Assembly: GCA_903862465.1 (NCBI GenBank)
Contig: CAIOYH010000201.1
Coordinates: 1 to 49,638 of the forward strand
Reading direction: 5' to 3'
Length of the DNA: 49,638 nucleotides
Source of the DNA: an uncultured bacterium
GTDB taxonomy: Bacteria; Bacteroidota; Bacteroidia; Bacteroidales; CAIWKO01
The position numbers were made by a program, and so were the translations under genes. This document shows positions 5,638 to 18,132 of the stretch, piece after piece; within the stretch, counting starts at the first letter, position 1; the number at the start of each line of letters is the position of its first letter. The notes beneath the pieces are model-generated. The model saw only the letters and a program-made list of their open reading frames with translations, was not told the DNA's origin and did no database searches.

Positions 5638-8076
5638 ATGATAAAAAACCTTGTTATAGTCGAATCACCGGCAAAAGCAAAAACCATAGAAAACTTTTTA
5701 GGAAAGGATTATGTAGTCAAATCCTGCTTCGGTCATATCCGCGATTTATCCACAAAGGATATAAGTATTGACATTGATAATGGCTTTATGCCGCTGTATG
5801 AAATCCCCACTGACAAAGCAAAAGTAGTAACAGAACTAAAGAAAAGCGCTAAGGAAGCCGAAACGGTTTGGTTAGCATCCGATGAAGACCGCGAAGGAGA
5901 AGCCATTTCTTGGCACTTGGCGGAAGCACTGAATTTAGACCAAACAAAAACCAAACGCATTGTTTTTCACGAAATCACCAAGAATGCGATAACGGAAGCC
6001 ATTTCAAATCCCCGCACCATCAACATTGATTTGGTGAATGCGCAACAGGCTCGCCGCGTCCTCGACCGCTTGGTTGGCTATGAGTTGTCACCATTATTAT
6101 GGAGAAAGATTCGTCCGGCTTTGTCTGCCGGAAGAGTTCAATCTGTTGCCGTCAAATTGGTTGTGGAACGCGAAGATGAAATAAAAAACTTCAATGTAAC
6201 GTCTTATTTTAAAGTAACAGGTAACTTTTCCATATTTAAAGATAGTAAGACCTATAAAGTAAAAGCGGACTTATCCTCACGGTATAAAACCAAAGAAGAA
6301 GCAGAAACATTTCTAAAAAAATGCATAGGTGCAAAGTATATTGTACAAGACGTTGAAACAAAACCAACAAAAAAATCACCTGCACCACCCTTCACCACAT
6401 CGACACTGCAACAGGAAGCGAGCCGCAAACTCGGTTTTTCCGTTACACGAACCATGGTGATTGCGCAGCAATTGTACGAAGATGGAAAAATAACCTATAT
6501 GCGTACCGATTCTGTAAACTTGTCCAACATGGCATTAGCTATGGCGAAAAACGAAATTGAAATAGCTTTCGGCGAAAACTATGTAAAGATTCGCAACTAC
6601 AAAACTAAAAGCAAAGGTGCGCAAGAAGCCCATGAAGCTATTCGACCCACCTATATGAATAAAAGTAGCATCAGTGGAACTAACGACCAAAAGAAGCTAT
6701 ATGATTTAATTTGGAAACGTACTATCGCATCTCAGATGAGCGATGCCGAATTGGAGAAAACCAATATAAATATAGGTAGTAAATCGTTTCAGGAGCTATT
6801 TATCGCAAGCGGTGAAATCATCAAATTTGATGGATTCTTAAAAGTTTATCTAGAATCTTCTGACGAAGAAGATGAAGAAACACAAAAAGGATTGCTCCCT
6901 CCAATTAAGAAAAACGATGTACTCGACGCGGAAGAAATCACTGCTTTGGAACGTTTCACACAGCATCTACCACGATATACAGAAGCAAGCCTCGTAAAGA
7001 AACTCGAAGAACTAGGCATCGGCAGGCCTTCTACTTTTGCACCAACTATCTCCACCATTCAGAAAAGAGAATATGTTGTGATTGAGAGCAAAGACGGACT
7101 CAACCGCAACTTTGTATGTCTGACACTGATTGACACAACAATTTCAGAAACCACAAGAACTGAAAACACAGGTGCTGAAAAAGCAAAACTATTTCCAACG
7201 GACATAGGTGGTTTGGTTACCAATTTCTTGTCAGAACATTTCAAAAACATCCTCGATTATAACTTCACAGCAAAAGTCGAAAAAGAATTTGACGAAATTG
7301 CTGATGGGAATTTGGTATGGAATGACATGATAAAAGAATTCTACGTCCCATTTCATGAACAGATTAACGAAACACAGAAAACTTCTAAAAAAGTAAGCGG
7401 TGAACGTCATTTAGGTGTGGATATAGCTTCAGGTAAAAACGTATATGTAAAACTCGGACGCTTTGGTCCCATGATTCAGATTGGAGAAAACACCGATGAA
7501 GAAAAACCGAAGTTTGTTGGTTTATTAAAAAGCCAATCCATGGATACTATCACGCTCGAAGAAGGATTAGCACTTTTCCTATTCCCCAAATTGATTGGAA
7601 ACTATCAAGATGAAGATGTTTTCGTTGGTTTTGGTCGTTTCGGACCTTACATAAGACATAAAGGAACATTCACTTCATTGCAGAAGACTGATGATCCATT
7701 AACTGTTACTTTACCAAGAGCCATTGAGCTTATCATAGAGAAAAGCATTAAAAACGAAAAGACCTATATCAAAGAATTTGCGGAAAACCCTGAAGTGAAA
7801 GTGATAAACGGGCGTTATGGACCTTACATTTCTGCCATGAAGCAGAATTACAAAATCCCAAAAGGTACGAAACCCGAAGGGCTTACTTTAGAGGATTGTC
7901 TAAAAATTGCTAGCGAAACTGAAACCACTAGTAAACCAAAAAGAACATTTGTTGCTAAAAAAGAAGCTGCTCCTAAAAAAGCTACAACAAAAACACCTTC
8001 AGCAAAGAAAACCACTACAGCGAAAAAGACTACAGTTAAAAAATCAAGCTCGAAAACAAAGAAAACCACAACTTAA
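5638..8076 (+). CDS. topA: DNA topoisomerase I
   Basis: An 812-aa type IA topoisomerase that relaxes negative supercoils by passing one strand through a transient single-strand break. The N-terminal Toprim domain shows LVIVESPAKAKTIE (catalytic Glu) and the acidic SDEDREGEAI motif. The active-site tyrosine is Y287 in ITYMRTDS. After the core there are glycine-rich C-terminal repeats (VFVGFGRFGPYIRHKG, VINGRYGPYIS) in place of cysteine zinc fingers. The tail from about residue 765 is built of Lys/Thr/Ala, a likely nonspecific DNA-binding extension. The next gene starts one base after the stop, so the two are probably cotranscribed. Confidence 0.98.
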   Translation: MIKNLVIVESPAKAKTIENFLGKDYVVKSCFGHIRDLSTKDISIDIDNGFMPLYEIPTDKAKVVTELKKSAKEAETVWLASDEDREGEAISWHLAEALNLDQTKTKRIVFHEITKNAITEAISNPRTINIDLVNAQQARRVLDRLVGYELSPLLWRKIRPALSAGRVQSVAVKLVVEREDEIKNFNVTSYFKVTGNFSIFKDSKTYKVKADLSSRYKTKEEAETFLKKCIGAKYIVQDVETKPTKKSPAPPFTTSTLQQEASRKLGFSVTRTMVIAQQLYEDGKITYMRTDSVNLSNMALAMAKNEIEIAFGENYVKIRNYKTKSKGAQEAHEAIRPTYMNKSSISGTNDQKKLYDLIWKRTIASQMSDAELEKTNINIGSKSFQELFIASGEIIKFDGFLKVYLESSDEEDEETQKGLLPPIKKNDVLDAEEITALERFTQHLPRYTEASLVKKLEELGIGRPSTFAPTISTIQKREYVVIESKDGLNRNFVCLTLIDTTISETTRTENTGAEKAKLFPTDIGGLVTNFLSEHFKNILDYNFTAKVEKEFDEIADGNLVWNDMIKEFYVPFHEQINETQKTSKKVSGERHLGVDIASGKNVYVKLGRFGPMIQIGENTDEEKPKFVGLLKSQSMDTITLEEGLALFLFPKLIGNYQDEDVFVGFGRFGPYIRHKGTFTSLQKTDDPLTVTLPRAIELIIEKSIKNEKTYIKEFAENPEVKVINGRYGPYISAMKQNYKIPKGTKPEGLTLEDCLKIASETETTSKPKRTFVAKKEAAPKKATTKTPSAKKTTTAKKTTVKKSSSKTKKTTT

Positions 8077-8077
8077 T

Positions 8078-9253
8078 ATGGACATATCAATTTATTTTGA
8101 ACCGATAAAACTAAAAAGTATATTGGATACGGATAACTTACATCCGAATCAACTATACAATTTTGTAAAGATTTTCGGAACAGACATGTCCTTTCCTGAT
8201 ATTGATGAAGTGGATATCGCTATAGTGGGAGTAAATGAAGGTCGTTCGGCGGTAAACAATTTACAATGCTCAAAAGCACCTGACGCGGTTAGAAAATATT
8301 TGTACGCTTTGTATAAACCTAATTTCAACCTAAACATTATTGACTTAGGTAATATTAAACCAGGGAAGACTATTAATGACACCTATTTTGCTTTTCGTGA
8401 TGTAGTTGCCACACTATTGAAAAAAAATATTGTACCTATTATTATTGGCGGTGGTCAGGATCTTACTTTCGCCAATTATTTGGCTTATGAATCTATCGGG
8501 AAAATAATAAATATTGTTACGGTTGACCCTGCCTTTGATTTGGGAGATACTGAAAGCCCTCTAACTTCACGAACCTATTTAAACAAAATCATTACCCATC
8601 AACCCAGTTATCTATTTAATTTTTCGAACATTGGTTATCAAACTTATTTTGTAGATTCAGCTGCTATTGATCTGATGAAAAAGCTTTATTTTGATACGAA
8701 TCGTTTAGGTTCTGTCCAAGCGGATATAGAAGAAGTTGAGCCGATGGTTAGAAATGCCGATATGATCTCCATAGATATTTCATCCGTACGCCACTCAGAT
8801 GCCCCAGGAAACGAAAATGCAAGTCCAAATGGATTCTATGGTGAAGAGTTATGTCGAATTATGCGTTATGCAGGGCTAAGCGACAAACTTAGCACTATAG
8901 GTATTTACGAGATAAACCCGGAAAAGGATATCAACGGTCAAACTGCTCATTTAGCAGCTCAGGCTATTTGGTATTTTGTTGATGGTTTTTATAACCGCAA
9001 ATTCGACTTTCCGGTAAAAGATAAAAAAGATTATATCAAATACAGAGTTGTAATCAAGGAACTTCAAAATGAAATTGTATTTTATAAAAGTAAAAAAAGC
9101 GATCGTTGGTGGATGGAAGTCCCGTGTCCCACCCGCCTAAAATCTAAATACGAACGTCATTATTTAGTCCCTTGTTCCTATAAAGATTATCAAACAGCGA
9201 TGAAAGAAGAAATCCCCGACCGTTGGTGGCAAGCATATCAAAAACTGATGTAA
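8078..9253 (+). CDS. Ureohydrolase (arginase/formimidoylglutamase)-fold protein with degenerate metal site
   Basis: A 391-aa protein of the arginase superfamily. The frame is open from 7907, inside topA, but ATG 8078 lies directly after the topA stop and gives the expected start MDISIYF. Active members bind two Mn ions through GGGHD, DAHxD and SxDxD motifs. Here these read GGGQD (Q127), DPAFD (150-154) and SIDIS (231-235): both histidines and one aspartate are replaced. I infer that it is not a normal Mn-dependent ureohydrolase. It sits between topA and the porP-gldKLMN genes, a neighbourhood I recall from other Bacteroidota, so a role in the type IX system is possible but unproven. Such genes are usually labelled formimidoylglutamase, which is doubtful here. 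Confidence 0.85.
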   Translation: MDISIYFEPIKLKSILDTDNLHPNQLYNFVKIFGTDMSFPDIDEVDIAIVGVNEGRSAVNNLQCSKAPDAVRKYLYALYKPNFNLNIIDLGNIKPGKTINDTYFAFRDVVATLLKKNIVPIIIGGGQDLTFANYLAYESIGKIINIVTVDPAFDLGDTESPLTSRTYLNKIITHQPSYLFNFSNIGYQTYFVDSAAIDLMKKLYFDTNRLGSVQADIEEVEPMVRNADMISIDISSVRHSDAPGNENASPNGFYGEELCRIMRYAGLSDKLSTIGIYEINPEKDINGQTAHLAAQAIWYFVDGFYNRKFDFPVKDKKDYIKYRVVIKELQNEIVFYKSKKSDRWWMEVPCPTRLKSKYERHYLVPCSYKDYQTAMKEEIPDRWWQAYQKLM

Positions 9254-9563
9254 GCTTTCTTTGACTTTATACTTTTTTTTAAAAAAACATTGAGGCTAAA
9301 AAGACTTTTTTCTAAGTTTTTTATTTTTTTTCATTTGATTTAAAATAAAAAAATTATCTTTGCAATGTGAAACTTTTTTTGAAAGAAGAGGTATAAAAGA
9401 GAAAATGTATTTTTACTTTCAAAACTATTTTCATTGGACTAATTTACAACGGTTTAAAAATATCCCAATTATTTAGTTGGTATTTTTTATTAACAATTGT
9501 GTGTTCATATAAAAAAACAGATGGTAATTTATGCTCAATTTTGAATAATATAAAAACGACAAT
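9254..9563 (+). other. 310-bp intergenic leader upstream of the type IX genes
   Basis: AT-rich with several T runs and no plausible gene. It contains the promoter-like pair described at 9334-9362, which would give a leader of about 195 bases before the PorP/SprF-like gene. I see no riboswitch or RNA fold I recognise. Confidence 0.6.
9334..9362 (+). promoter_or_regulatory. Probable promoter of the porP-gldKLMN cluster
   Basis: TTTG at 9334-9337 and TATCTTTG at 9355-9362, 17 bases apart, match the Bacteroidota consensus apart from slightly short spacing. This would place the start of transcription near 9368. Confidence 0.6.
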
Positions 9564-10574
9564 ATGAAAAAATTTTACTTCGCACTTATTTTCTTTTCAT
9601 TTTCTGTTCTAACTTTTGCACAACAAGAGCAACAGTTTACTCAAAACATGTTTACCAATATGTTTACGAATCCTGGTTATGCAGGAATTAATAAACAAAT
9701 TTGTTTAACTACCTTGTTTCGTCAACAATGGACTGGATTTACTGACACATATACAGACAAAAACGGTGTACAGCAAACACATAAAGGTGCACCGCAAACA
9801 ATTTTACTTTCTGTTGATGGTCCTATTCGTGCTTTACGCGGTGGTATTGGTTTGTCTATTTTTAGTGATAAATTAGGCTTTGAGAGCAATTTAGGGGTAA
9901 AACTTGCTTATTCGTTTCATCAACCTATTTCTATTGGTGTTTTAGGAATTGGCATACAAGTGGGATTCTTAAACAAAAGTATTGACTTCTCAAATTTTAA
10001 TCCAATTGATTTAAACGATCCATTGCTGAACAATCAAACTGGTAAGAAATCAACATTTATTACGGATATAGCTGCTGGCTTATTTTACAATATCCCGGGA
10101 AAAGCTTATGTTGGAATATCTTCATCACAATTAATTCAAGGCAAAATAAAAATTGATATTCCTAATATTAAATCTAGTTTAAAAAGACATTATTATTTAA
10201 CAGGAGCTTATCATTGGACAATACCAGGCGCGCCTGATTGGGAATTGAGTCCTTATCTGTTAATAAAAACTGATTTTGCATCTGCTCAATATGATGTTAC
10301 TGCTATGGCAAAATGGAAGAATATGGTTTGGGCTGGTATTTCATATAGAGTTCAAGATGCTGTTGGAATTATTATTGGAGCTTATCCATTTAATCAACCC
10401 ACGATGAAACCTGCGCTACAGCAATTAAAAATAGGTTATTCGTACGACATCACAACATCCGCTCTTGGAAAAAGCAAAAGAAGCAGTGGAACTCATGAAG
10501 TTATGTTGGGCTATTGCTTTAAAATTGTTATCACGCCGCACGTAACAAAATATATTAATACACGATTTTTATAA
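9564..10574 (+). CDS. Type IX secretion system membrane protein, PorP/SprF family
   Basis: A 336-aa outer-membrane protein. The signal peptide covers residues 1-19 (ending LTFAQ). The family start follows: repeated FTQNMFTNMFTNPGYAG and a RQQWTGF motif, the hallmark of PorP/SprF proteins. The rest is beta-strand-rich and fits a barrel of about 14 strands. In the family, PorP/SprF proteins anchor type IX components or specific surface adhesins such as SprB at the outer membrane; many genomes have several paralogs with different partners. Its place directly before gldK suggests it is the paralog that works with the core machine. The gap to gldK is 96 bases and holds its own promoter-like box. 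Confidence 0.93.
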   Translation: MKKFYFALIFFSFSVLTFAQQEQQFTQNMFTNMFTNPGYAGINKQICLTTLFRQQWTGFTDTYTDKNGVQQTHKGAPQTILLSVDGPIRALRGGIGLSIFSDKLGFESNLGVKLAYSFHQPISIGVLGIGIQVGFLNKSIDFSNFNPIDLNDPLLNNQTGKKSTFITDIAAGLFYNIPGKAYVGISSSQLIQGKIKIDIPNIKSSLKRHYYLTGAYHWTIPGAPDWELSPYLLIKTDFASAQYDVTAMAKWKNMVWAGISYRVQDAVGIIIGAYPFNQPTMKPALQQLKIGYSYDITTSALGKSKRSSGTHEVMLGYCFKIVITPHVTKYINTRFL

Positions 10575-10670: not shown

Positions 10671-12053
10671 ATGAAAAAATTCCTTGTAATTATAGCTTTT
10701 TCTGCAATCATCTTTATAAGTAGTTGCAAAAATAACGGAAGCGGAGAACTTATAGGAGTTCAGGGTAGGGAAGGATTTTATCAACCAACCCCTTATGGAA
10801 TGTTGTTTATTCCTCCTGGAAGCTACCAAATGGGTCCAAGTGATCAGGACGTTCCCTATGCAATAACCTCGCAACAAAAAACTGTGACAGTTCAAGCTTT
10901 TTATATGGACGAAACTGAAATTACTAATAACGAATATCGTCAATTTGTTTATTATGTAAGAGATTCTTTAGCTAGAGAACTTCTTGGCAGTGTTACTCCT
11001 GAAGATTGGTGGATTGAAGAAGATAAATATGGTGAACCATTAGAACCACATCATCTTAATTGGGATACACGTATTAAATGGGATGATTTAGAGCAAGATG
11101 AAAGAGAAGCATTGGAGCCTTTGTATATGCCAGAACATGAAAGATATTTCAGAAGAAAAGAACTTGATACAAGAAAACTAAATTATGAATATTATTGGGT
11201 AGATTATAAAGCGGCTGCTCGCAAAGACTTTACGACAGAAGCAACTGCTACTCAAGACCAAGCTGACCATGATCTTTCAAGTTTATCGAATCGTCCCCAA
11301 GGCGTTAAAGATAGATCTGTTTTTCTTAAGAAAGGCGTTATCAATGTTTATCCTGATACACTTTGTTGGGTTCACGACTTTACATATTCGTATAACGAAC
11401 CAATGTTAAACTATTTTAGTCATCCTGCTTATGATAATTATCCAGTTGTTGGTGTGAGTTGGACTCAAGCACGTGCATTCTGTATATGGAGATCTAATAC
11501 ACTCAATGAATATTTGGAAACAAATGGTGATTATCGTGTAAATGATTTTCGTTTGCCAACAGAATCTGAATGGGAATGGGCTGCTCGTGGAGGTCTTGAT
11601 CAAAGTCCATATCCTTGGGGAGGTCCTTACATTCGTAATAGTAACGGATGTTTCTTAGGAAACTATAAACCATTACGTGGAAATTATCTTGATGATGGCG
11701 GAATTCAAACACTAATTGTTGCTCACTATGCTCCAAACGATTTTGGCTTGTATGATATGGCAGGTAATGTTGCTGAATGGTGTATGGATGCTTATGACGA
11801 ATCAGCATACAATTTTGCACATGATCTCAATATGAATTACTCATACGAAGCAAAAAAATCAGACCCCGAAGTATTGAAACGTAAAGTAATTCGCGGTGGA
11901 TCTTGGAAGGATATCGGATATTATATGCAAGCAGGTGTTAGAACATACGAATATCAAGATACGGCAAAATGTTATATTGGTTTTAGATGCGTACAAACTT
12001 ATTTAGGACGTCATATTGATGACGGCGCTGGTTCTTCGAATATATATAGGTAA
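10671..12053 (+). CDS. gldK: Gliding motility / type IX secretion lipoprotein GldK
   Basis: A 460-aa lipoprotein: a type II signal peptide ends at FISSC with lipidated Cys19. The body is a formylglycine-generating-enzyme (sulfatase-modifying factor) fold: YGMLFIPPGSYQMG, MDETEITNNEYRQF, VGVSWTQARAFC, RLPTESEWEWAARGG, YDMAGNVAEW and IRGGSWKD appear in the family order. In type IX systems GldK/PorK forms a periplasmic ring with GldN/PorN under the outer membrane. The FGE fold is structural here, not known to act as an enzyme. First of four tightly ordered core genes; gldL follows after 58 bases. Confidence 0.97.
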   Translation: MKKFLVIIAFSAIIFISSCKNNGSGELIGVQGREGFYQPTPYGMLFIPPGSYQMGPSDQDVPYAITSQQKTVTVQAFYMDETEITNNEYRQFVYYVRDSLARELLGSVTPEDWWIEEDKYGEPLEPHHLNWDTRIKWDDLEQDEREALEPLYMPEHERYFRRKELDTRKLNYEYYWVDYKAAARKDFTTEATATQDQADHDLSSLSNRPQGVKDRSVFLKKGVINVYPDTLCWVHDFTYSYNEPMLNYFSHPAYDNYPVVGVSWTQARAFCIWRSNTLNEYLETNGDYRVNDFRLPTESEWEWAARGGLDQSPYPWGGPYIRNSNGCFLGNYKPLRGNYLDDGGIQTLIVAHYAPNDFGLYDMAGNVAEWCMDAYDESAYNFAHDLNMNYSYEAKKSDPEVLKRKVIRGGSWKDIGYYMQAGVRTYEYQDTAKCYIGFRCVQTYLGRHIDDGAGSSNIYR

Positions 12054-12111: not shown

Positions 12112-13131
12112 ATGGGAATTTATAATTTAGTAAGAAGTAAGGGTTACAAACAATTTATGGCCAAATTGTATGGCTGGGGTGCATCCGTCGTAATTTTAGG
12201 TGCATTATTTAAAATTAATCACTATGCAGGAGCAGACCTTATGCTTATATTTGGTCTAGGTACAGAAGCGTGTATTTTCTTTTTCTCTGCATTTGAGCCA
12301 TTGCATGTTGAACATGATTGGTCATTGGTTTATCCAGAATTAGCTGGTATGGAAGATATCGAACATGGTGCTGCTAAAGGAACTGCTACACAGCGTTTAG
12401 ACAAAATGCTAGAAGAAGCAAAAATTGGTCCAGAACTTATTGCTAGTTTAGGAGACGGCATGAGAAATCTTGGTGAAAATGCTTTGAAATTATCTGGCGT
12501 TGCAGATGCAGCATCAGCTACTGATGGCTATGTTACTAACCTTAATAACGCTGCCGGCAACGTTAAAAATTTATCAGAAGCTTATAACAAAACAACTGTT
12601 GCTTTAGAAAACGATATAGTAGCTACTCAAGAATTTTCTGACTCCATTAAAAATGCTTCAACAACTGCCGGTAATTTAGCAGGAGCATATAGTCAAGTTG
12701 CTGATAATATTCAGAAAGATATTCATGCAACAGATGATTATGTAAAAAGCATTGTTCATGCTACAGAGTCTGCTCATAATTTAGCTGATAAATATGTGAA
12801 ATCTGCTGAATCATTGACAAAATCTGCAGATGCTATTGATTTTTCAGCAGTGGATGGAAGAACTTATGGCGAACAAATTCAAAAAATGTCAAAGAACCTA
12901 ACGGAATTGAATGCTGTTTATGAACTTCAATTAAAAGGTTCATCAGACCAACTCCTAAAAACAAATCAAGTTCAAGAAAGCATTGACGGATTTTTGGCAA
13001 ATCTTAATGACTCTGTTGAAGGTACTGCAAAGTATAAAGATCAAGTTAATATTTTGGCTAAAAATGTGGCAGCACTCAATCAGGTGTATGGAAATATGCT
13101 TGCTGCTATGAATGTAAACAAAACAGTTTAA
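12112..13131 (+). CDS. gldL: Type IX secretion motor protein GldL
   Basis: A 339-aa inner-membrane protein. Two transmembrane helices lie near residues 22-40 and 43-61. Lys34 in the first and Glu52 (GLGTEACIFF) in the second match the charged residues known to matter for proton-driven motor function in the family. The remainder is a long cytoplasmic, helical, Ala/Asn/Ser-rich region with imperfect internal repeats of about 40 residues (TxxNLAxAY-like motifs near 150, 195 and 225). Longer than GldL of Flavobacterium, probably because of these repeats. It forms a pentamer around GldM dimers in known systems. gldM starts 38 bases downstream. Confidence 0.95.
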   Translation: MGIYNLVRSKGYKQFMAKLYGWGASVVILGALFKINHYAGADLMLIFGLGTEACIFFFSAFEPLHVEHDWSLVYPELAGMEDIEHGAAKGTATQRLDKMLEEAKIGPELIASLGDGMRNLGENALKLSGVADAASATDGYVTNLNNAAGNVKNLSEAYNKTTVALENDIVATQEFSDSIKNASTTAGNLAGAYSQVADNIQKDIHATDDYVKSIVHATESAHNLADKYVKSAESLTKSADAIDFSAVDGRTYGEQIQKMSKNLTELNAVYELQLKGSSDQLLKTNQVQESIDGFLANLNDSVEGTAKYKDQVNILAKNVAALNQVYGNMLAAMNVNKTV

Positions 13132-13169: not shown

Positions 13170-14783
13170 ATGGGTGCAACAAATTGTCCGGAAACCCCGA
13201 GACAGCGAATGATTTCGATGATGTATCTCGTGTTGACAGCACTTTTAGCTCTCAACGTTTCAAAAGAGATACTCGATTCATTTCTTATCGTAAATGAAAG
13301 TTTAGTTACAACAAACGAAAACTTTACTAAAAAAATCGAATTGACATACTCTGCATTCGATAAACAATTGAAAATAAACGAAGCTAAAGTTCGTCCATTT
13401 TTTGAAAATGCACAGAAAGCACGTAAAATGGCTAAGGATATGATAAGCTTTATTGAGCAAACTAGAACTGAAGTAATCGCTGCTGAATCAAAAAAAACCG
13501 TTGCTGAATGTAAAGATATCAATCTAAGAGAAGTCGGTACCCGTGATAGGTATATTGAAGGTACTCGCTATTTTATTGGTAATTCAGAAACTGGTGCTGG
13601 CGGAAGAGGCGAAGCATTGAAGAAAAAGATAGAGGATTTCAAAGCAAATATGTTGAACCTTTTGGACAAAAAGAAACATGCGAAAATGGATTTAGGTTTA
13701 GACACTAAAGGTCCATACAAAAACGCTAGTGGAAAAGCTCAAAATTGGGAAATGCATAATTTCTATTATACTATCCTTGTTGCCAATGTAGTTATCTTGA
13801 ACAAACTTATTGCTGAAGTAAAAAATGCAGAATTCGACGTAGTGAATGCTTTATTGACTGATATCTCCGGTGATGACTTTAAATTTGATGAAGTAGGCGC
13901 TAAAGTTGTTGCAAAGAGCAATTATGTGCTCACAGGAGAAACTTTCGAAGCAGATATTTTTGTGGCAGCTTATGACACTAAACAAAATCCTATTATTGAA
14001 GTTGGTTCTGGAATTGATTCAAATACAATGGTAATTTCGGGAGCAACAACAAAAGTGGATGGTTATAGAGGTGTTGGGAAATTGAAACTGCCAGCGGGTG
14101 CTGCCGGTGTTAAGCAATTTGGTGGAAAAATCACTATAGCGGGTGCGGATGGAACAAGTAAATCGTATCCTTTCAATAGCGAATATGTGGTTGGTACCCC
14201 TTCTGCAACTATTTCTCCGACTATGATGAATGTATTTTATATTGGCGTGGATAACCCTGTTTCTATTTCGGTGCCAGGTGCATCAAACGAACAAGTTACT
14301 CCATCTATTACTGGTGGCGGTGGAACTATTACAAAATCTCCAGGAAATGGACTTTATAATGTAAGAGTTTCTACACAAGGTAAATGTACTGTAAACGTAA
14401 GTGCTAAAATGGGTGCTACATCTAAAAATATGGGCATGATGGAATTTCGTGTAAAACGTATTCCTGATCCTGTTGCTTACGTTGGTGGTGTTAGAGGTGG
14501 AGTGATCCCAAAAGCGAATTTACTTGCTGCAGGTGGTGTTATTCCAAAAATGGATGGTTTTGATTTTAATGTATTCCCAACAATAACTAGTTTTACGTTA
14601 GCTATTGTTAAAGGTGGAGACTATAATACAGAAACAACAGCCGGAGCAAGATTTTCTGCAAAGATGATACAAATGCTGAACAGTGTAAGTAAAGGACAAA
14701 AAGTATTTTTTGAAGATATTAAAGCTAAATTACCTGATGGAACTACTCGTAATTTAGGTGCTATAACATTAAAAGTTGGTTAA
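13170..14783 (+). CDS. gldM: Type IX secretion motor protein GldM
   Basis: A 537-aa protein with the conserved GldM start: NCPETPRQRMISMMYLVLTA leads into a single transmembrane helix (about 17-35) that carries Glu33 (NVSKEIL), a charge used in proton coupling in the family. The large periplasmic part begins with a helical region (about 40-215). Beta-sandwich domains follow: VVAKSNYVLTGETFEADIFV from about 245, NVFYIGVDNPVSISVPG from about 350, and the last from about 430. GldM dimers cross the periplasm and are thought to transmit rotation from GldL to the GldK/GldN ring. Family length is about 510-520, so this is normal. Confidence 0.97.
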   Translation: MGATNCPETPRQRMISMMYLVLTALLALNVSKEILDSFLIVNESLVTTNENFTKKIELTYSAFDKQLKINEAKVRPFFENAQKARKMAKDMISFIEQTRTEVIAAESKKTVAECKDINLREVGTRDRYIEGTRYFIGNSETGAGGRGEALKKKIEDFKANMLNLLDKKKHAKMDLGLDTKGPYKNASGKAQNWEMHNFYYTILVANVVILNKLIAEVKNAEFDVVNALLTDISGDDFKFDEVGAKVVAKSNYVLTGETFEADIFVAAYDTKQNPIIEVGSGIDSNTMVISGATTKVDGYRGVGKLKLPAGAAGVKQFGGKITIAGADGTSKSYPFNSEYVVGTPSATISPTMMNVFYIGVDNPVSISVPGASNEQVTPSITGGGGTITKSPGNGLYNVRVSTQGKCTVNVSAKMGATSKNMGMMEFRVKRIPDPVAYVGGVRGGVIPKANLLAAGGVIPKMDGFDFNVFPTITSFTLAIVKGGDYNTETTAGARFSAKMIQMLNSVSKGQKVFFEDIKAKLPDGTTRNLGAITLKVG

Positions 14784-14806: not shown

Positions 14807-15673
14807 ATGAAAAAAAGCATGTTGATTTTATCTGTAATTGGTCTTTTAATGACCATACAGGTTAAAACCTATTCACAAAACAATCTAGGAAAAACTCCTG
14901 TGGATGGGCTTTTTGATAAACGCACACAAAGTGCAAATTCGTTGAATCGCGTTCCTATTCCCTATACATCTATTCGAGAATCGGATGTCATGTGGTCTAA
15001 ACGGGTATGGCGTGTTATTGATTTGCGTCAAAAAATAAACCTTCCATTTTATTATCCAATTGATGAACAACAAGGTCGTAAGAGCTTGATGCAAATTATT
15101 TATAATGGTATCAAAGAAAATTCAATCACTGCTTATGGAACGGATGACGAAGAATTTCTAACTCCGTTGACTGCTGCTGATCTAGGAAAAAAACTAGACA
15201 GAATTGATACCATACAGGTTACAAGTACTGAACCTCCTTATGATGTTCATGACTCTGTGGTTAATAATAAATTTAATCCATCAGATGTAGTCTTGATTCG
15301 TGTTAAAGAAGATTGGTTTTTTGACAAACAACGTTCTGTGATGGATGTTCGCATTATTGGACTTTGTCCCGTAAAAGAACTTTATGATGACCAAGGAGAA
15401 TTCAAAGCTATGCAACCGATATTTTGGGTTTATTTTCCTGAATGCAGAAAATTGTTTGCAACGAATGAGGTCTATAACAAATTCAATGATGCTGAACGCA
15501 GAACATATGATGACATTTTCTTCAAACGTTTGTTCGGAAGTTATATCTATAAAGAAAGTAATGTTTATGATCGTAAAATTGGTCAATACACCAAGGGAAT
15601 GGATGCATTGCTCGAAGCAGAAAGGATAAAGAACGACATATTCAATATTGAACACGATTTGTGGGAATATTAA
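14807..15673 (+). CDS. gldN: Type IX secretion ring protein GldN
   Basis: A 288-aa periplasmic protein with a Sec signal peptide (about 1-24, ending KTYSQ). The family core is clear: IRESDVMWSKRVWRVIDLR, then NLPFYYP, RIKEDW-like VRVKEDWFFDKQRSVMDVR, IIGLCPV, WVYFPECRKLF and TYDDIFFKRLFGSYIYKESNVYDR. In known systems GldN/PorN binds GldK/PorK to form the periplasmic ring. Only one copy is present; there is no gldO-like duplicate. Last gene of the cluster, 23 bases after gldM and followed at once by a terminator. Confidence 0.97.
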   Translation: MKKSMLILSVIGLLMTIQVKTYSQNNLGKTPVDGLFDKRTQSANSLNRVPIPYTSIRESDVMWSKRVWRVIDLRQKINLPFYYPIDEQQGRKSLMQIIYNGIKENSITAYGTDDEEFLTPLTAADLGKKLDRIDTIQVTSTEPPYDVHDSVVNNKFNPSDVVLIRVKEDWFFDKQRSVMDVRIIGLCPVKELYDDQGEFKAMQPIFWVYFPECRKLFATNEVYNKFNDAERRTYDDIFFKRLFGSYIYKESNVYDRKIGQYTKGMDALLEAERIKNDIFNIEHDLWEY

Positions 15674-17411: not shown

Positions 17412-18132
17412 TTATAAACCTAGAAATTCAATGCCAATGCCACAAATAAAAATTGTGAAGCCTGCAATAGCATGCATATACCGTTGGAGAAATTTCATTG
17501 GCAACATCTTTAAACCAAATAAAGGCAGCAGTACCATGGCAATCATTGTAAGAATAGTTGTAAGGCTAAAGACGATTACCACTAAAACAACGCCCGAAGT
17601 GCTTTGTTTGGCAGCCGGAAACATCAGCAAAGGTATCAAGGGTTCGCAAGGACCAAACACAAATATCGTGAATAATATCCATGGTGTCATATTGACAGGA
17701 GTGGTTTCCTCATGCTCGTGAGCATGCTCTTTTGTTTGTTTATGATTATGATCATGTCTGTGAAAGCTTCCATCATCATGGACATGACGATGATGATGGG
17801 GTCTATTCCTTAATCCACGCCACAAACCCCCATGAAAAATACACCAATCCAAAAATAATAAACAACCATGCAGCAACACTTCCACGATACCCTTCAAAAA
17901 CCGTCAGATGCGCCACACTTAATCCAAAAGCAATTCCTATAGCTCCAATCACAATAGAACTTCCAACATGTCCTAGTCCACATAAAGTAGTAATCCAAAC
18001 TGTTTTCCAATTCGACCATTTTTTTGCTTTCGAAAGAACGAAGAAAGGCAAATAATGATCAGGACCTGCAAGCGTATGTAAAAAACCTAAAGAGGCAGCA
18101 GTAATAGATAATGTTAGGATTTCTGAGTTCAT
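17412..18132 (-). pseudogene. UreH/NicO-like metal-transporter membrane protein, frameshifted
   Basis: Two frames cover one gene. The first (18132 down to 17803) gives MNSEILTLSITAASLGFLHT with a HTLAGPDHYLPF motif, the HxxxxDH metal signature of UreH/NicO-type nickel or cobalt transporters, and four hydrophobic helices. The second (from about 17840 down to 17412) continues with a His-rich loop (RNRPHHHRHVHDDG, then HDHNH and HAHEHEE) and three more helices. Removing one base from the five-G run (CCCCC at 17827-17831 on +) joins them as YFSWGLWRGLRNRPHHH. Either a sequencing error or a real frameshift; the conserved second half argues for an error or very recent loss. The name is by motif only, and the protein could instead be in the TauE/SafE group. 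Confidence 0.8.

Follow-up and report, generated by a model that had tools for sequence, protein, structure and literature searches.

A pseudo-ureohydrolase with an additional C-terminal domain, encoded between topA and porP-gldKLMN, is probably a repurposed enzyme fold

Introduction

What does a protein of the ureohydrolase fold do in a locus of the type IX secretion system (T9SS) when the motifs expected to hold its metals are altered? The question is raised by an open reading frame lying between topA and porP-gldKLMN in a stretch of 49,638 nucleotides of Bacteroidales DNA, called the window hereafter. We use UH as a label for this pseudo-ureohydrolase gene and for its product. In a preliminary description, the altered ligands were taken to make Mn-dependent hydrolysis unlikely and UH was proposed to be a repurposed fold paralleling GldK, for which the usual name formimidoylglutamase would mislead. 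Here we examine the fold of UH, its metal ligands, its C-terminal part, its neighbours and its distribution relative to T9SS genes.

Results

UH is a full-length ureohydrolase-fold protein

UH starts with an ATG at 8078, a single base after the topA stop at 8076, and ends with a stop codon at 9251–9253. The porP start (9564) follows after 310 bases, then come gldK, gldL, gldM and gldN (Table 1). The coordinates confirm the placement given in the preliminary description, one base behind topA and just before porP-gldKLMN. The protein (391 aa) had also rightly been called full length, and this length is conserved among homologs.

Table 1. Features of the UH locus in the window
Feature	Coordinates	Strand	Basis
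topA (type I DNA topoisomerase), immediately before UH	5638–8076	+	TIGR01051 over cut-off
UH, pseudo-ureohydrolase gene	8078–9253	+	ORF of 391 aa; PF00491, 9.3e-22; AlphaFold2 model
Motif 1, residues 124–128, GGGQD (canonical GGGHD)	8447–8461	+	alignment census
Motif 2, residues 150–154, DPAFD (canonical DAHxD)	8525–8539	+	alignment census
Motif 3, residues 231–235, SIDIS (canonical SxDxD)	8768–8782	+	alignment census
C-terminal domain, residues 304–391	8987–9250	+	alignment; no counterpart in 5 true HutG rows
Promoter-like site TTTG-N17-TATCTTTG, UH-porP gap	9334–9362	+	pattern match
porP/sprF-family gene	9564–10574	+	PF11751, 1.8e-61; TIGR03519 over cut-off
gldK	10671–12053	+	TIGR03525, 584.6 bits (cut-off 350)
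gldL	12112–13131	+	TIGR03513 over cut-off
gldM	13170–14783	+	TIGR03517 over cut-off
gldN	14807–15673	+	TIGR03523 over cut-off

By sequence domain, UH belongs to the ureohydrolase superfamily (PF00491, 78.2 bits, cut-off 22). It falls outside the HutG equivalog family, since the formimidoylglutamase model TIGR01227 gave 103.5 bits for a cut-off of 229.15. The AlphaFold2 model of the whole protein (pLDDT 92.3, pTM 0.92) agreed with superfamily membership: it matched 4mxr in the fold search with E 1.3e-18, residues 21–308 of the model aligned to the Trypanosoma cruzi formiminoglutamase with Z 37, and the top match was 4myn (Z 37.2, rmsd 2.0, 278 aligned residues). When the window genome was queried with UH, a single match reached E 1 or better; a plasmid search gave no match. 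Among the matches listed, the closest named homologs were metagenome-assembled genomes of Bacteroidales or Bacteroidetes.

Elsewhere in the window, two overlapping minus-strand ORFs in different frames (17412–17897 and 17803–18132, together 17412–18132) look, from their translations read by eye, as if a frameshift had divided a single membrane-protein gene.

The metal-ligand losses are a family trait

The ligand census covered 129 main-clade homologs, including the UH of the window, and the neighbourhood count 136 loci; both are uneven samples, not de-duplicated across collections. Eighty loci were the best-matching named loci and the rest were selected from a wider homolog search. Seven places had been fetched twice, as short (L002, L004, L011, L015, L020, L022 and L023) and long copies (L051–L057). 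The long copies were dropped from the census, in which five HutG, six f6 and three f8 rows were counted apart; the short copies were dropped from the neighbourhood count, in which the HutG rows, L047 and L048 were left out.

The preliminary description had read all three motifs correctly. At the six ligand positions the UH of the window carries Q, D, A, D, D and S. Throughout the main clade, D150 and D233 were invariant (129/129 each) and position 154 was D in 118 homologs and N in 11. Residue 127 was Q in 109, H in 17 and N in 3, position 152 was occupied by 17 different residues with His in 14 homologs, and no homolog had Asp at 235. His127 together with all three Asp was kept in 15 of the 129 (18 with Asn counted), and the complete set of six binuclear ligands in none. 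The preliminary description had looked to syntenic homologs for a decision: at the 37 loci beside porP/gldK the motif loss was consistent (37/37), Asp235 was found at none and no intact ligand set occurred.

True HutG proteins of the phylum had His127, His152 and Asp235 in 5/5 rows and all six ligands in 4/5, the remaining one (L044) carrying Asn for D154. Outside the main clade, the six divergent f6 homologs had Asp at 235 and had lost the other five ligands, with S, S and N in place of D150, D154 and D233, and an Asp was aligned at 235 in one of the three f8 rows. Other positions were strongly conserved in UH: R225 was present in 129/129 UH and 0/5 HutG, and D89 and R56 were invariant or nearly so. 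R72 and Q188 were conserved as well but are common to HutG (5/5 and 4/5).

These ligand losses are thus a family trait, neither chance nor decay. In the arginase scheme of sites A and B, as we take it to apply here, His152 and Asp235 are the two ligands that belong to site B only. Their losses, which affect residues completing the binuclear metal site, are the decisive ones. The change of the first His alone is not, because the T. cruzi formiminoglutamase 4mxr binds two Mn with Asn at this position (4myn is its N114H variant) and such a change is therefore tolerable. The three Asps left could hold one metal; that UH contains no metal at all is therefore something we only infer. The early view that Mn-dependent hydrolysis is unlikely stands as far as it relies on the missing His152 and Asp235 and on the lack of a full set in all 129 homologs; the first-His change is not decisive for it, and the three retained Asps qualify it.

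UH is separate from HutG and under purifying selection

In a tree of 47 rows (41 UH, 6 HutG), a single branch divided UH from HutG with SH-aLRT 100, the tree being made by a quick method with SH-aLRT only, no bootstrap and some long branches flagged. Two genomes hold both proteins: G381, with UH (L018) between topA and gldK and a HutG elsewhere (L049), and G130, with UH at C1:1328255 and HutG at L050. At all five true HutG loci, a gene from one amidohydrolase-family cluster lay no more than 4 kb away, and two of the five (L049, L050) had an adjoining ORF with a HutH-type motif. No hut gene was found among the typed neighbours of the window's UH (topA, porP, gldKLMN). The low TIGR01227 score, the incomplete ligands and the separate branch all bear out the opinion that the label formimidoylglutamase misleads.

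Purifying selection was apparent within the genus of the window (pN 0.10 against a saturated pS of 0.75, window versus L196). In this pair the C-terminal domain was 94% identical and residues 45–303 were 85% identical; against L197 the values were 88% for the C-terminal domain and 71% for the enzyme-fold part. As judged from these comparisons, UH would qualify as a pseudoenzyme, with catalytic residues lost and the protein under selection.

UH carries an additional C-terminal domain

About 88 residues extend beyond the ureohydrolase fold and are missing from the five true HutG rows. This C-terminal domain went unnoticed in the first reading of the sequence. W344 and W345 were present in 129/129 main-clade homologs and C366, Y371 and P380 in 128/129; the near-invariant residues of the domain are F335, S338, C366, Y371, A374, P380 and W383. 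Among the matches listed, those from other classes of the phylum stopped at or before residue 321. In fast-evolving homologs of f8, f105 and f130, the enzyme-fold half was lost or scrambled in large part and the C-terminal motif retained.

Modelled alone, the domain reached pLDDT 80.2. A fold search of the PDB with this model gave nothing significant (Foldseek E 1.2 and VIA Z 3.9 at best). WGR/WRKY DNA-binding look-alikes recurred in these searches but stayed below significance (E of at least 2.6 in Foldseek, Z below 3). A Pfam scan of the domain in 24 members hit 10 families, each in at most two members (best E 0.0022) and none convincing, and a stand-alone version sought in the 24 UH-negative genomes of the class gave two matches at chance level (E 0.049 and 0.073).

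topA is the most frequent neighbour of UH

Among the 136 loci, 35 had topA upstream and porP or gldK downstream, 18 had topA upstream without T9SS genes directly downstream, one had porP without topA and 59 had neither topA nor porP/gldK adjoining; in the other 23 one side was unresolvable, one of them having porP downstream. In all, topA was directly upstream in 59 loci, of which 35 had T9SS genes downstream, 18 had none and six were undetermined; porP/gldK adjoined UH in 37, including Bacteroidales, Flavobacteriales and Crocinitomicaceae records. The gap between topA and UH had a median of 38 nt (59 loci, start codons being script-chosen), and that between UH and porP/gldK measured 70–411 nt (37 loci).

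In the window this second gap holds a promoter-like site at 9334–9362, called with what we presume to be the Bacteroidota promoter consensus. A relaxed form of the pattern was matched by 0.055 of mononucleotide shuffles of the window gap. It occurred in 5 of the 37 gaps (0.5 expected from mononucleotide shuffles) and in none of the other 32; the strict form occurred in 3/37. Since most gaps lack the pattern, the argument for a separate promoter draws on the site in the window and the length of the gaps. Given the short topA gap and the longer porP gap with its promoter-like site, topA and UH are most likely transcribed together, and transcription of porP-gldKLMN may start separately.

No common functional theme emerged from the 68 loci without topA or gldK nearby (true HutG included). 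The named loci of the Sphingobacteriaceae type mostly had an NAD-epimerase-family gene on the opposite strand, and f5 loci had pheS-like, S13 peptidase and mutL genes nearby. At nine loci, nearly all f5 (L031, L032, L033, L034, L036, L061, L062, L068 and L069), UH was followed, in the same orientation, by a gene of the S13 D-Ala-D-Ala carboxypeptidase family, which came immediately next in 8/9; this neighbour is lineage-specific and might hint at an envelope role. Three loci (L084, L099, L111) carried two or three tandem gldN-like genes after gldM, reminiscent of the gldN/gldO pair.

Co-occurrence with the T9SS is broad and incomplete

In the class sample, a UH profile match was found in 372 of 396 genomes, where the gene would be labelled a histidine-degradation enzyme, a role that its sequence makes unlikely. 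The seven matches with E values above 1e-35 were inspected singly, and all seven contain the C-terminal domain. GldK was over cut-off in 377/396 genomes. Among UH-positive genomes, 370/372 had a match to the GldK model with E no higher than 1e-5, a threshold that also catches paralogs, as 2/14 control genomes were matched below cut-off. Six of the 370 were weak matches (G346, G440, G511, G611 and G693 at 1e-24 to 1e-27, G579 at 1.6e-50) that may stem from paralogs sharing the fold. In the remaining two UH-positive genomes (G667 and G672, fragmented assemblies) GldM was present.

The 24 UH-negative genomes of the class comprised 16 with GldM over cut-off and eight without GldM, one of the latter (G494) being a doubtful case with a weak GldK match (4.1e-24). 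The eight genomes found without GldM were all among the UH-negative, and by GldK or GldM match no genome without a T9SS marker was found among the UH-positive. A divergent UH behind topA was sought in 18 UH-negative genomes: topA was present in 17 and the best profile match there was at chance level (E 0.92).

In the window's order, 204 of 294 genomes had a UH match, one of them a true HutG (G789). GldM was present in 271, SprA in eight of the other 23, and 15 genomes lacked both. UH occurred in at most 201 of the 279 T9SS-bearing genomes and was absent from at least 78, a lower bound because three more weak matches (G756, G865 and G875) may likewise represent HutG. Among the 15 genomes without GldM and SprA, 13 had no UH and two, of one genus, had a half-degenerated copy.

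In this T9SS-less genus (family f130; L191 and L192), UH still lies directly behind topA, its N-terminal half without metal motifs and its C-terminal half retained. In one genome pair of the genus, UH was 53% and TopA 71% identical, as against 69–83% for UH and 69–80% for TopA in the window's genus. UH was missing from two of the four sampled members of that family, representing its two other sampled genera. At L194 an AsnC-type regulator gene comes next on that strand. The pattern in the genus fits a constraint weakened, not abolished, after T9SS loss.

UH is not present wherever the T9SS is, since at least 78/279 order genomes and 16 class genomes with T9SS markers are without it, and a universal T9SS core part is contradicted. 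The co-occurrence anticipated in the preliminary description was borne out in one direction: UH-positive class genomes were nearly all GldK- or GldM-positive, but many T9SS-bearing genomes do without UH. Ancestry is moreover a confounder of this co-occurrence, as the majority of sampled T9SS-less genomes belong to families in which none of the sampled members has UH. We regard the T9SS link of UH as suggestive.

Discussion

That UH is a repurposed enzyme fold is well supported by the sequences compared: in most of the class members sampled it has lost metal-binding residues and gained a new tail domain, and would therefore probably have been reused for another job. It would be an old, widespread formimidoylglutamase paralog in which the ureohydrolase fold appears kept (in the predicted model), His152 and Asp235 are gone, and a new C-terminal domain has been added. 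Its three Asp and its family-specific residues (for example R225 and the RWW region) are held by strong purifying selection. UH would no longer carry out metal-dependent amidine hydrolysis; it is probably soluble and cytoplasmic, no signal peptide being visible by eye. The former active-site face, now remodelled, and the C-terminal domain may bind either a small ligand or another protein, and UH may serve as a scaffold or a sensor. Because UH often precedes porP-gldKLMN and is nearly restricted to genomes with a T9SS, we suggest that it is an accessory of the cell-envelope/T9SS programme, not a core secretion part. As a whole, the reading of UH as a cytoplasmic protein that binds or scaffolds instead of hydrolysing, is transcribed together with topA and is accessory rather than core to the T9SS appears to us moderately probable.

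Were UH an enzyme that has stayed active on a different substrate, with one metal or an otherwise altered centre, then in the single-metal version Asp150, Asp154, Asp233 and Gln/His127 would hold the site A metal, and R225, D89, R56 and RWW would shape a new pocket. The invariance of D150 and D233, the D or N at 154 in 129/129, the Q, H or N at 127, the constancy or near-constancy of R225, D89 and R56, and the Mn2 held by the T. cruzi formiminoglutamase with Asn at the first His all fit such a centre. It is at odds, however, with the six f6 homologs that dispense with D150, D154 and D233, and with the f8/f105 and f130 homologs that have largely lost or scrambled the enzyme-fold half and keep the C-terminal motif; we hold a remaining enzyme to be unlikely. 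The ordinary formimidoylglutamase of histidine breakdown would explain the fold and the similarity to PF00491 and TIGR01227, but not a score less than half of the TIGR01227 cut-off, a ligand set incomplete in 129/129, a branch distinct from HutG, an extra domain, and neighbours among which no typed hut gene is found. This makes it extremely improbable.

That UH is a dedicated component of the T9SS or a factor in its assembly, reusing an enzyme fold as GldK does and partnering, for example, the cytoplasmic region of GldL, is quite unlikely. This would account for the 37/136 loci adjoining porP/gldK, for the GldK-model or GldM matches of UH-positive class genomes and, in the T9SS-less genus, for a UH less conserved than TopA and missing from 2/4 family members. 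Such a component should not be lacking from 16 class and at least 78/279 order genomes bearing the T9SS, nor lie away from both gldK and topA in 59/136 loci, nor persist with a conserved C-terminal half in genomes without GldM and SprA; the promoter-like site before porP in the window also sets UH apart. Of the earlier proposal, the repurposing is supported, and a T9SS part like GldK is disfavoured by these absences and by the loci elsewhere. A partnership with topoisomerase I or nucleic acid would make sense of topA as the commonest neighbour (59/136 loci, closely spaced) and of the topA-UH pair in the T9SS-less genus. Nevertheless, as many loci have neither neighbour, including Sphingobacteriaceae records and the f5, f11 and f12 loci inspected, topA is present in 17/18 UH-negative genomes tried, and the WGR/WRKY resemblance of the C-terminal model stays under significance; we consider this partnership very improbable.

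Beside the accessory scaffold that we prefer, a bolder proposal can be made, tentatively and with a rather low likelihood: UH could represent a new type of bacterial pseudoenzyme, a ureohydrolase fold recast as a cytoplasmic adaptor which, via its hitherto undescribed C-terminal domain, docks on the T9SS inner-membrane motor (e.g. the cytoplasmic part of GldL) or controls its assembly in most Bacteroidia, and which some T9SS-bearing lineages have dispensed with. The latter would presumably be Porphyromonas/Prevotella-like lineages, the subject of much T9SS research. Should UH indeed serve the T9SS or the envelope, most gliding, secreting Bacteroidota would have in it a part that has been overlooked.

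Our search of open PMC papers apparently yielded no paper describing UH; the matches listed in one such search contained no mention of arginase or formimidoylglutamase, and a search within PMC12105760 gave no match. One species description reports no histidine-degradation pathway except formiminoglutamase (PMC11278836). Such a lone formiminoglutamase is what mislabelling of UH would produce, and the gene concerned may be UH.

Three known systems come closest to UH. With HutG (TIGR01227; 3m1r, 1xfk, 4mxr) it has the alpha/beta ureohydrolase fold in common; unlike HutG, it is without the full ligand set, carries the extra C-terminal domain, lies outside a hut cluster and scores under the family cut-off. 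The T9SS lipoprotein GldK/PorK has the formylglycine-generating-enzyme fold (PF03781, 2.1e-50) and is an example of an enzyme fold reused at the very locus of UH, but GldK is over its equivalog cut-off throughout most of the class, whereas UH is missing from many T9SS genomes and is not known to belong to the secretion machinery. MetCb, the metal-free subunit of metformin hydrolase, is a ureohydrolase-superfamily pseudoenzyme pairing with an active paralog (PMC11271267). In contrast to MetCb, UH has no homologous active partner that we could find in the window genome, because the UH query matched only once there. Like UH, MetCb has no binuclear centre, and it is retained as the binding partner of another protein (PMC11271267): inactive ureohydrolase-fold partners are already known elsewhere.
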